A DNA stretch of 61,576 nucleotides from Bacteroidales bacterium. GTDB lineage: Bacteria > Bacteroidota > Bacteroidia > Bacteroidales > Muribaculaceae. Position numbers and translations under genes: made by a program. Positions 28,384 to 31,255 of the stretch are shown here, piece after piece. The stretch lies in contig JAAVFL010000046.1 of the NCBI GenBank assembly GCA_014800795.1, positions 1 through 61,576 on the forward strand, read 5' to 3'. Every line of letters begins with the position of its first letter. The stretch's first letter is position 1. A model generated the notes under the pieces. The model ran no database searches. It was not told where the DNA came from and saw nothing but the letters and a program-made list of their open reading frames with translations.

Positions 28384-29136
28384 TCAGGCTTGACAAAACG
28401 CAATTCCTGCAGCCTTTAGTTTTTCAGGAGTACCTATATCAAACCATCTGAACGGTGATGGAGGACACCATCCGTAGATAGCCAACTGATTGATTGCCCA
28501 CAAATAGAACGGCATTATAGAAAAGGGATTGCCCTCTCCGGCAATCTCTTTTTCATACCGTCGGAGAAGCTTGAAGATATCTGGAGATACTATATGAACT
28601 CCCCCAAAAGCCATCGAAATATAATTTTCAAGATTTACGGATACCGGAATTTGTTGCCCTGAGTTAAGATTTTTCCAACCCTGCAGCAGATTGGATTGTG
28701 AAAAATATAGCATTCGTGATGAACTACGTGATGACACCAAAAGAGTTACATCACTTCCATGCGACAGATGGGACTGTTTCATGTCAGAGATAGAAGCATC
28801 GGTTATTATATCTGCATTATGGAGAAGAATCGGTTCCGATCCCATCAATAATTCTTCTGCCTTCAGCAACCCTCCCCCTGTATCAAGCAGGCGCCCGGTT
28901 TCATCGCTTATGGTGACATCGAGTCCGAAGAACGAATTATGTTCAAGAAACTCAATAATCTGCGAAGCAAAATGGTGTACATTCACAACCACTTTCTTAA
29001 TGCCGGCATCCCTGACACGGATCAAAACCCTTTCAAGAGCAGGAACACCGCAAACAGGAGCAAGCGCTTTCGGATGACTGTCTGTAAACGGTTTCAGTCT
29101 TGAGCCGATACCGGCCGCGAATATCATTGCTTTCAT
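28384..29136 (-). CDS. MurU-like nucleotidyltransferase (NDP-sugar pyrophosphorylase family)
   Basis: Rossmann-like nucleotidyltransferase of 250 residues. GIGSRLKPFTDSHPKALAPVCG (9-30) is the nucleotide-binding signature; VVVNVHHFASQI and the LLHNADIITDASI strand with its metal-binding Asp follow. It lies 13 bp after a sugar kinase of the AmgK type. By analogy with the Pseudomonas and oral Bacteroidetes recycling route, it probably converts an anomeric amino-sugar 1-phosphate (MurNAc-1-P) to the UDP-sugar. Mannose- or glucose-1-P specificity cannot be excluded from sequence. Confidence 0.8.
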   Translation of the reverse strand: MKAMIFAAGIGSRLKPFTDSHPKALAPVCGVPALERVLIRVRDAGIKKVVVNVHHFASQIIEFLEHNSFFGLDVTISDETGRLLDTGGGLLKAEELLMGSEPILLHNADIITDASISDMKQSHLSHGSDVTLLVSSRSSSRMLYFSQSNLLQGWKNLNSGQQIPVSVNLENYISMAFGGVHIVSPDIFKLLRRYEKEIAGEGNPFSIMPFYLWAINQLAIYGWCPPSPFRWFDIGTPEKLKAAGIAFCQA

Positions 29137-29149
29137 TACAGTTTCAGCG

Positions 29150-30634
29150 TCATAGAGTTGTCAATACTGTCAGGAGGTTTTGCTCGCGGTGATGAACAAC
29201 GACCCGCACCAGGGGATACTTCACTGCAAAATGGTGAGCCAATGTTTCTGCACTGTACACAGAACGATGGCGCCCGCCGGTACATCCGAAGGCGACACAC
29301 AACGAAGAGAATCCGCGTTGCATGTAACATTCCACAGACTTTTCTACGATTGCCGTAGCGTTTGACAGGAAGCTTATTATTTCCCCGTCCTCCTCGAGAA
29401 ATCTCCGAACCGGAGCATCCAGGCCTGTCAATGATCTGTATTCCTCATATCTACCGGGATTATTAATACCACGGCAATCAAATACGAATCCGCCTCCGTT
29501 ACCGGACAAATCGTATGGCACTCCCCTTTTATACGAAAAACTACTTACAGTCAGTGTAAGCCCGTTATATTGTGGCAATCCTGCAATTGCTTTGAGATCC
29601 AAAATTTTCTGCGAATCGGCGATTCTTGCAGATAACTCTTTAAGGTATGGGAATCGCGAGGCTGCATTGGCAAACTCTGTATCCATCGGCGATGCGAAAA
29701 AATTAAATAAACTTTTGACACCATTAGGTATACTTCGAAGAAAGTGTGGCTTGCGCTCAGTCCATCCTCTGAATCCATATGCTCCCAATGTCTGTAATAT
29801 GCGGAACAACACATATACGGGTAGTAGTGTTCGGAACTTATCTTTATCGAACTTTGGAGAGATTGAGGCCGCTTCGTCAATATATGCCTCGATCATATGT
29901 TGTTTGATCTCATCAGGAAAAGCCGCCTTCGCCTGCCAGAGGAATGAGACAAGATCGTATTGAGCAGGTCCTATACGGCCTCCTTGGAAATCTATTACAT
30001 AAGGGTTCCCATCTTTAAGCATTATATTACGACTTTGAAAATCACGTACCATAAAAGTTACGGAGGTCTTTGCATCGTCGTATATTATATCGCGTAAACT
30101 TTCAAGTTCACTATCGAGAGCGCATTCGTCAAAGTCTAATCCCACTGATTTAAGAAAACAATATTTGAAATAGCTTAAATCATTTGAGATCGTACGCATA
30201 CTCAATCTTTGCTCCGGGTAACATCGGGAAAAATCCATTCTACAAGCGCCAGTCATCTGTATATGCGGGAGCAGACGTATACAGCGCTCTATGATCTTTT
30301 TTGTTTCCGTTGAATATGAGCCGTCGGGAGATAGCATGTCGGAAAGCGATGTATCACCGAGATACTCCTGAATATATACCATCTCATCATCCGAGACCGC
30401 ATATACCTCCGGTACCGGAATGCCATGGCTCCGAAAATGACGTGCCAGATATATGAATGCACGGTTTTCGGCTGTGTCAGCACCGACTGTCGCTATGGCC
30501 TGCCTGCCATCACTTCCGGTAACAAGAAAATATGAGCGATCGGAGCCAGATACAGGGAGCTTGGTTATTTTATCCGGCAGAATACCATAACAGCTCTGAA
30601 ATAGCTGCGAAACAGTAGTGGCGACATTGTTCAT
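29150..30634 (-). CDS. AmgK-like sugar kinase fused to a RapZ C-terminal domain
   Basis: Two-domain protein of 494 residues. Residues 1-350 are an aminoglycoside phosphotransferase-type kinase like AmgK, the anomeric MurNAc/GlcNAc kinase: catalytic VRDFQSRNIML (D198, N203) and metal-binding VIDFQGGR (D215). Residues 358-485 match the C-terminal domain of RapZ, with FDCRGINNPGR (385-395), LTGLDAPVRRFL (402-413) and the phosphosugar pocket GCTGGRHRSVY (450-460). In E. coli that domain binds glucosamine-6-phosphate and the small RNA GlmZ; the RapZ P-loop ATPase half is absent here. The fusion suggests a kinase sensing amino-sugar status, an inference. Co-transcribed with the murU-like gene. Confidence 0.85.
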   Translation of the reverse strand: MNNVATTVSQLFQSCYGILPDKITKLPVSGSDRSYFLVTGSDGRQAIATVGADTAENRAFIYLARHFRSHGIPVPEVYAVSDDEMVYIQEYLGDTSLSDMLSPDGSYSTETKKIIERCIRLLPHIQMTGACRMDFSRCYPEQRLSMRTISNDLSYFKYCFLKSVGLDFDECALDSELESLRDIIYDDAKTSVTFMVRDFQSRNIMLKDGNPYVIDFQGGRIGPAQYDLVSFLWQAKAAFPDEIKQHMIEAYIDEAASISPKFDKDKFRTLLPVYVLFRILQTLGAYGFRGWTERKPHFLRSIPNGVKSLFNFFASPMDTEFANAASRFPYLKELSARIADSQKILDLKAIAGLPQYNGLTLTVSSFSYKRGVPYDLSGNGGGFVFDCRGINNPGRYEEYRSLTGLDAPVRRFLEEDGEIISFLSNATAIVEKSVECYMQRGFSSLCVAFGCTGGRHRSVYSAETLAHHFAVKYPLVRVVVHHREQNLLTVLTTL

Positions 30635-30744: not shown

Positions 30745-30786
30745 ACGCAGGGATCGACCGACCAATTCAAGCGATCTACCCTGCGT
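30745..30786 (-). terminator. Terminator of the DUF5606 gene
   Basis: ACGCAGGG (30745-30752) pairs with CCCTGCGT (30779-30786), with an additional gatcg/cgatc inner stem. On the minus strand it is followed by TGTTATTTAT. It isolates the DUF5606 gene from the kinase gene downstream. Confidence 0.7.
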
Positions 30787-30805: not shown

Positions 30806-31255
30806 TTACTTGGTTTGTGCCTCATCAGCTTCTTCTGCTTTTTCAGCGGCTTCATCCTGAGCGATCTCTTCATCCTTGAACTCGGTAACGCCGGCGGCTA
30901 TCAGCTGATTGTACCAGCTGAAAAGCTTACGGATATCTGTAGTGTAAACTCGATCTTCATCAAAATCTGGAAGTATGGATTTGAAGTACTCCCGAAGATC
31001 TGTATCGCTCATAGATTTTGCCTCAACCGACTGGCCGCCTGTAGCTTGCTTGATTTTATCAAGTACCTCGGTGAGAGGCACATCTGCCTCGTTTGTATAA
31101 ATTGCTATATCGCCAAGTGATACAACTTTATCACGGGCATACGCAGGCATACGTTTCCCATTGGCTATATTTTCGACTATAAGCATATTTTTGCCCTGGT
31201 TTACCAATTTATATAGACCTGGTTTACCAGCAATAGACAGTATTCTTTTAAGCAT
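30806..31255 (-). CDS. DUF5606 family protein
   Basis: Protein of 149 residues of unknown function, cytoplasmic by sequence. The opening MLKRILSIAGKPGLYKLV, and GLYKLVNQGKNMLIVENI with KRMPAYARDKVVSLGDIAIYT further on, form a small beta-rich N-terminal domain characteristic of DUF5606. The C-terminus is acidic and Ala/Glu-rich (about 125-149). It is single, with a strong promoter (31291-31321) and its own terminator, which suggests abundant expression. It is divergent from purT. Confidence 0.85.
   Translation of the reverse strand: MLKRILSIAGKPGLYKLVNQGKNMLIVENIANGKRMPAYARDKVVSLGDIAIYTNEADVPLTEVLDKIKQATGGQSVEAKSMSDTDLREYFKSILPDFDEDRVYTTDIRKLFSWYNQLIAAGVTEFKDEEIAQDEAAEKAEEADEAQTK

Follow-up and report, generated by a model that had tools for sequence, protein, structure and literature searches.

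The stretch of DNA analysed here (the window) is 61,576 bases long, covering positions 1-61,576 of contig JAAVFL010000046.1 in assembly GCA_014800795.1, from a member of the Bacteroidales in the Muribaculaceae. Two adjoining genes on its reverse strand are considered, and all coordinates given for these genes and their parts are on that strand. The upstream gene, at 29150-30634 with the stop codon included, encodes a protein of 494 amino acids (aa) in which an AmgK-like kinase is joined to a RapZ C-terminal domain (RapZ_C). The downstream gene, at 28384-29136, is separated from it by 13 bases and encodes a MurU-like sugar-1-phosphate nucleotidyltransferase of 250 aa. Both were identified from their open reading frames (ORFs) and from Pfam and NCBIfam matches, together with an AlphaFold2 model for the fusion and PDB sequence matches for the transferase.

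The kinase part of the fusion matches the APH family (PF01636) in Pfam at residues 29-252 (29879-30550; E 3.4e-16). The AlphaFold2 model of the whole protein has a mean predicted local distance difference test score (pLDDT) of 91.2, and a Foldseek search with it returned mainly APH-fold kinases, with 3CSV at the top (E 1.3e-14). By sequence, the best PDB matches of the fusion are E. coli RapZ chains, followed by 3CSV. The catalytic motif RDFQSRN (residues 197-203; 30026-30046) is invariant at R197, D198, F199, Q200, R202 and N203 in 18 aligned rows, as are D215, Q217 and G219 of DFQGG (residues 215-219; 29978-29992), a motif with a metal-binding role.

In NCBIfam the kinase part scores best with AmgK (E 4.6e-15) and the neighbouring transferase with MurU (E 1.6e-32), the E-values being nine to ten orders of magnitude better than those of the top model from any other family. 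Neither protein reaches the curated cut-offs, the kinase scoring 55.6 of 550 bits and 27 of 500 bits for AmgK and the transferase 113.2 of 250 bits and 98.9 of 370 bits for MurU. The two are thus relatives, rather than certified members, of AmgK and MurU. Among PDB sequences the transferase matches 4Y7T first and a MurU entry (the 8HHD group) second, and it also resembles mannose-1-phosphate and other transferases. A choline kinase and cytidylyltransferase pair, similar to LicA and LicC, was considered and rejected on its much weaker scores. An earlier note on this DNA had proposed an AmgK-like kinase with an adjoining MurU-like partner, which these models bear out, and had listed the motifs RDFQSRN, DFQGG, LTGLD and GCTGGRHRSVY, all of which are present in the translation.

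On the evidence of its sequence and predicted structure, the rest of the fusion is a true RapZ C-terminal domain that has come without the RapZ ATPase half, as the same note had it. Residues 360-485 (29180-29557) match PF22740 with an E-value of 1.1e-32, at 113 bits against a cut-off of 27. The AlphaFold2 model of this part has a mean pLDDT of 92.1. The structural comparison with RapZ that had been suggested was run, and the RapZ fold fits: E. coli RapZ chains take up ranks 1-16 of the Foldseek results (E 4.8e-11 to 5.3e-7), and the template modelling score (TM-score) against the isolated domain 5O5S is 0.90, normalised by 5O5S. The RapZ N-terminal half (PF03668) gave no match to the fusion protein in Pfam at E-values up to 1, and NF003828 scored 102 of 244 bits, covering positions 156-277 only. 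It was considered that the N-terminal half might be encoded elsewhere in the genome as a second partner. This was rejected, with PF03668 above its cut-off in none of the 80 genomes of the order that were searched and a single sub-threshold match (G319).

The earlier note had suggested a survey of the fusion and its association with murU. This was made in two samples, 247 genomes from the window's order (Bacteroidales) and 247 from its phylum. RapZ_C is widespread in the Bacteroidales, being present in 196 of the 247 order genomes, and is found in 27 of the 247 phylum genomes. A profile of the kinase half (E up to 1e-20) matched 207 order genomes, including all 196 with RapZ_C, and the kinase was also found in all 27 RapZ_C genomes of the phylum sample. 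There the kinase profile matched 80 genomes, of which 52 are RapZ_C-less members of one family (f18) whose kinase is only distantly related (E about 1e-41 to 6e-21). Strong matches, taken as E below 1e-60, a cut set after the list was seen, number 28 in the phylum sample and 27 of these have RapZ_C, the exception being G009. The expected company of the transferase was also seen, its profile matching 68 of 72 kinase-bearing genomes versus 2 of 8 kinase-lacking genomes in an 80-genome subset of the order.

After removal of 10 re-fetched copies, 81 distinct loci were compared. Kinase and RapZ_C are in one frame at 68 loci, and at the other 13 RapZ_C is a separate gene of 132-161 aa. In eleven cases the RapZ_C gene immediately follows a separate kinase gene of the same strand, in eight of these with the transferase next, and in two genomes (G180 and G480) the kinase is on another contig. 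The transferase is on the fetched stretch at 56 of the 81 loci, these stretches differing in length and some stopping at contig ends. On a quick kinase tree with 64 labelled rows, at least six changes between the fused and separate states are needed. That these parts have repeatedly been joined or split is good evidence that they share a function. The fusion is a member of a conserved Bacteroidales module and not a unique oddity.

Two further arrangements were seen. In one genome (G249; L072, 4076-6325) a B3/4 domain (PF03483), the kinase and RapZ_C are in a single frame of 750 aa; a triple fusion of kinase, RapZ_C and transferase had been suspected there and was rejected, as the transferase has its own frame. 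The kinase of one RapZ_C-less genome (G477; L097, 6378-7976 and 5307-6347) adjoins an RNase Y gene, which may be a chance neighbour.

The phosphate-pocket loop of the fusion, CTGGRHRS, is at residues 451-458 (29261-29284) and corresponds in the alignment and the model to C247-S254 of E. coli RapZ. The loop C-T-G-G-x-H-R-S is invariant in all 81 Bacteroidota domains, except at position x. Cys-dependent phosphatases have as their signature the pattern CxxGxxR[ST], placed between strand and helix. It is present in 82 of 82 RapZ domains, E. coli included, and in none of 508 other ORFs of at least 150 aa from the same loci; it arose in 74 of 20000 shuffles of the window's RapZ domain. In the predicted structure the Cys is the last residue of a strand (444-451) and the Arg the first of a helix (457-472), as they are in a phosphatase loop. 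This full signature, which the earlier note overlooked, suggests that the pocket belongs to an enzyme. The likeness of E. coli RapZ to Cys-phosphatases has already been published, as speculation (PMC7199280, in the text available). According to the accessible parts of other reports, the E. coli pocket binds sulfate or malonate (PMC5737377), the substitutions C247A and C247S abolish activity, leading Islam and colleagues to suspect a catalytic -SH, and crystals soaked with glucosamine-6-phosphate (GlcN6P) gave density taken as a likely chemically transformed product (PMC9841335).

For residue counts, the 81 distinct Bacteroidota domains were aligned with E. coli RapZ and its numbering is used; roles of the E. 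coli residues are as given in the available portions of PMC7073468, PMC5737377 and PMC9841335. Invariant in all 81 are C247, T248, G249, G250, H252, R253 and S254 of the loop, and also D182, R184, N188, P189, G200 and H276. K170 is Lys or Arg in 78. The E. coli pocket residue H190 is Gly in 77 of the 81, so that the E. coli ligand cannot be assumed, although the phosphate pocket is kept. A GGG insert ahead of the FDCR motif is invariant in the Bacteroidota domains and is not found in E. coli. Of the residues that contact RNA, R184 is among the invariant ones and R196 is Lys or Arg in 65. Others are replaced, R238 by an aromatic residue in 80 domains, K251 by Gln in 68 and K270 by Val, Ile or Leu in 76. 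K194 is mostly not kept. The last 19 residues hold a median of 3 and a maximum of 7 Lys and Arg (n=81), versus 8 in E. coli RapZ; no domain has eight or more. The basic C-terminal RNA-binding region of RapZ (K270, K281, R282, K283) is therefore not retained. In what is available of PMC7073468, the RNA-binding region is limited to the Enterobacteriaceae, and homologues show high conservation of the putative GlcN6P site.

The kinase, RapZ_C and transferase very probably form a unit for the salvage of cell-wall sugars, in keeping with the peptidoglycan-recycling route suggested in the earlier note. The conserved and lost residues suggest that the RapZ domain is here a metabolic part, perhaps a phosphatase, rather than an RNA binder. 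Cys-dependent phosphatase chemistry is tentatively favoured for it, because no other reading predicts an invariant Cys, and because it suits the separate genes. The latter, at 13 of the 81 loci, argue that the domain is a working part in its own right.

The two genes would then be the Bacteroidota version of an anabolic route for cell-wall sugar salvage. The kinase domain would phosphorylate its presumed substrate, N-acetylmuramate (MurNAc) or N-acetylglucosamine, at the anomeric position, and the transferase would make the uridine diphosphate (UDP) derivative of presumably the same sugar, bypassing part of the de novo synthesis of UDP-MurNAc. The RapZ domain would bind an amino-sugar phosphate in its CTGGxHRS loop and may remove the phosphate, with C451 as the putative nucleophile and R457 as the phosphate holder, and the freed sugar would be handed to the kinase. 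MurNAc-6-phosphate (MurNAc-6-P) is the first candidate substrate and would make the domain a functional stand-in for MupP of Pseudomonas; that it is the actual substrate is doubtful.

AnmK is the maker of MurNAc-6-P and MurQ is a competing consumer. Among the kinase-bearing genomes sampled from the order, 154 of the 196 with RapZ_C have AnmK, versus 2 of the 11 without RapZ_C, and one of these two (G255) has only a 237 aa kinase frame and may be incomplete. Taken by family, the counts are 84 of 104 versus 0 of 4. MurQ (profile threshold E up to 1e-30) is present in 31 of the 196 order genomes with RapZ_C versus 21 of the 51 without, and 136 of the 196 have AnmK and no MurQ. In the phylum sample, AnmK is found in 17 of the 27 RapZ_C genomes versus none of the 53 with a kinase match and no RapZ_C; 52 of the 53 are of family f18, to which none of the 170 AnmK-positive phylum rows belongs, so this is nearly a single event. 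Fisher p-values on such counts ignore ancestry and carry no weight in the conclusions.

Several observations weigh against a phosphatase, or against MurNAc-6-P as its substrate. Full conservation of the Cys would also suit a binding site. The best 50 of 143 Foldseek matches of the C-terminal model include no tyrosine phosphatase, and alkaline phosphatases appear among them only at E-values of about 1 to 4, which is noise. No report of phosphatase activity was found in the available text of the literature on E. coli RapZ. In the window's genome and three sampled members of its family (G271, G384 and G479), neither AnmK nor MurQ was found, so that no known source of MurNAc-6-P was found there, and PF01869, which covers MurK/NagK-like proteins, has no match in the window's genome. 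AnmK was not found in 42 of the 196 RapZ_C-bearing Bacteroidales, and a further genome of the order (G422) has AnmK and the kinase with neither RapZ_C nor MurQ. Across the whole phylum sample there is no association, AnmK being present in 17 of 27 genomes with RapZ_C versus 153 of 220 without (p 0.51). A kinase tree was made of 115 rows, namely 104 of the sampled RapZ_C-positive rows and the 11 RapZ_C-negative ones whose match is nearly full-length. On it AnmK needs at least 20 changes versus 6 for RapZ_C, and only four supported independent pairs differ in RapZ_C, so that a sign test cannot reach significance (median p 0.5). The co-occurrence of AnmK and RapZ_C is therefore suggestive within the order, absent across the phylum sample and not significant after correction for ancestry. 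The retention of RapZ_C in lineages without AnmK means that, if the domain is a phosphatase, MurNAc-6-P made by AnmK cannot be its sole substrate.

Replacement of RapZ_C by another phosphatase gene beside the kinase was also considered and rejected. None was found in nine neighbouring frames scanned at four RapZ_C-less loci, which encode a transglycosylase, a lipoyl ligase, an M48 peptidase, SpoIID, an MFS protein, RNase Y, a phosphatidylserine decarboxylase, LacI and a cytidylyltransferase. PF01869 covers too much to serve as a probe for MurK in the genomes without AnmK: of its matches above 90 bits, most are in frames of about 600-1500 aa, where MurK is about 300 aa. In four genomes (G257, G275, G317 and G439) MurQ adjoins a frame of 284-328 aa with a weak match of BadF type, probably as a MurK-MurQ pair of the kind found in Tannerella forsythia.

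A close rival to the phosphatase is an allosteric sensor, which was the principal idea of the earlier note and is only a little less plausible. The RapZ domain would bind GlcN6P or MurNAc-6-P unchanged and switch the kinase according to amino-sugar supply. The kept phosphate pocket, with K170 as Lys or Arg in nearly all domains and D182, R184 and N188 invariant, is as expected for such a site, and fusion at 68 of 81 loci suits a regulatory domain. In 10 order genomes and G009 a near full-length kinase occurs without RapZ_C, which gives the domain the look of an addition. A sensor does not predict a Cys invariant in 81 of 81 domains, however, and the change of H190 to Gly alters the E. coli pocket. 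Separate genes, in two cases on a different contig from the kinase, are also less natural for a purely regulatory domain.

It is improbable that the kinase and transferase serve another sugar, for instance in a sugar-1-phosphate route to capsule or lipopolysaccharide, with the RapZ domain acting there. The failure of both proteins to reach the curated cut-offs and the similarity of the transferase to mannose-1-phosphate and other transferases would fit this, but AmgK and MurU lead the other NCBIfam models by many orders of magnitude. Expression of T. forsythia AmgK and MurU in E. coli also allows labelling with MurNAc probes, in the text available of PMC13041923, although that AmgK may or may not belong to the family of the fusion kinase.

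Slightly less probable again is a structural or partner-binding role, in which the domain would hold kinase and transferase together for channelling and the loop would be kept for folding. The C-terminal domain of RapZ dimerises by itself (PMC7073468, available portion), and where the separate genes are linked RapZ_C is always behind the kinase, with the transferase behind it in 8 of 11. Against this, the invariance takes in the whole phosphate loop, the transferase is on only 56 of the 81 fetched stretches, given their differing lengths, and two genomes have RapZ_C and the kinase on different contigs. Very unlikely is the RNA-binding kinase also raised by the earlier note, in which the domain would bind small RNAs or its own mRNA for post-transcriptional control of salvage as in E. 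coli RapZ: the fold is that of an RNA-binding domain, with R184 invariant and R196 mostly Lys or Arg, but the idea was dropped as the leading one on the residue counts, the basic tail being gone from every domain and R238, K251 and K270 replaced, and it is further weakened by the confinement of the RNA-binding region to the Enterobacteriaceae in the parts of PMC7073468 cited above and by an Rfam scan of the window in which no family reached its gathering score.

Upstream of the fusion gene, inspection by eye showed, at 30746-30785 read on the reverse strand, an imperfect hairpin (CGCAGGG...CCCTGCG) with a T-rich stretch after it. The hairpin sits between the fusion gene and a DUF5606/DUF6852 gene (30806-31255, reverse strand), of which it is probably the terminator; if so, the fusion and transferase genes are likely to be on their own transcript. 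The hairpin was not among the results of a terminator scan, probably due to its long loop.

No description of a fusion between such a kinase and RapZ_C, and no biochemistry on the family, was found in the open-access literature, where most subscription journals are lacking. If the RapZ domain is a phosphatase, it fills a missing salvage step in those Bacteroidales with AnmK and no MurQ, which are 136 of the 196 RapZ_C genomes. If the domain acts as a sensor, the module becomes a compact salvage kinase under regulation. A RapZ domain with few of the RNA-binding features left, in an operon that wants a sugar-phosphate step, makes a clean test system for two questions about E. coli RapZ, namely whether its pocket hydrolyses GlcN6P and why C247 is essential. 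A more speculative and less probable reading is that RapZ_C is by origin a Cys-dependent amino-sugar phosphatase. In the Bacteroidota it would still be a pathway enzyme, fused to AmgK and doing the step of MupP with an unrelated fold, the P-loop half would have been joined to it in other bacteria, and in the Enterobacteriaceae its pocket would have been recruited for GlcN6P sensing and small RNA binding. The Bacteroidota form would in that case be the metabolic ancestor, or at least the metabolic sister, of an RNA regulator.

Among known systems, the Pseudomonas route runs through AnmK, the phosphatase MupP, AmgK and MurU (PMC5371407 and PMC13041923, as far as available). In T. forsythia, MurNAc salvage with AmgK and MurU is assumed and the phosphatase is not named in the accessible part of PMC7670621. 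The fusion kinase shares the APH fold, the RDFxxxN and IDFQ motifs and an adjoining partner transferase with the Pseudomonas-type MurNAc/N-acetylglucosamine kinase AmgK, and differs in falling below both AmgK cut-offs and in carrying a RapZ domain. Its neighbour is, like the MurNAc-alpha-1-phosphate uridylyltransferase MurU, a small nucleotidyltransferase, with MurU as its best NCBIfam model, but it falls short of the curated MurU cut-offs (113 of 250 and 99 of 370 bits). The RapZ domain would be similar to the MurNAc-6-phosphate phosphatase MupP in its proposed position, ahead of AmgK and MurU in the route. MupP belongs to the HAD-type phosphatases (PMC5371407, in the text available), and the RapZ domain, with another fold and a Cys loop, would be at most a functional analogue; no HAD match is among the Pfam and Foldseek matches listed for it. 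With the Cys-dependent protein-tyrosine phosphatases it shares the CxxGxxR[ST] loop between strand and helix; no whole-fold match to them is among the best 50 of 143 Foldseek matches. The likeness to the E. coli RNase adapter RapZ (YhbJ) is in the PF22740 fold and the phosphate loop. Unlike E. coli RapZ, the fusion is without the P-loop N-terminal half, the domain is joined to a sugar kinase or lies beside one, and the Bacteroidota domains have the GGG insert, Gly in place of H190 and no basic RNA-binding tail. What is new is the setting, a RapZ domain that lacks most RNA-binding features and in all genomes sampled is accompanied by an AmgK-like kinase, usually in the same gene or operon.

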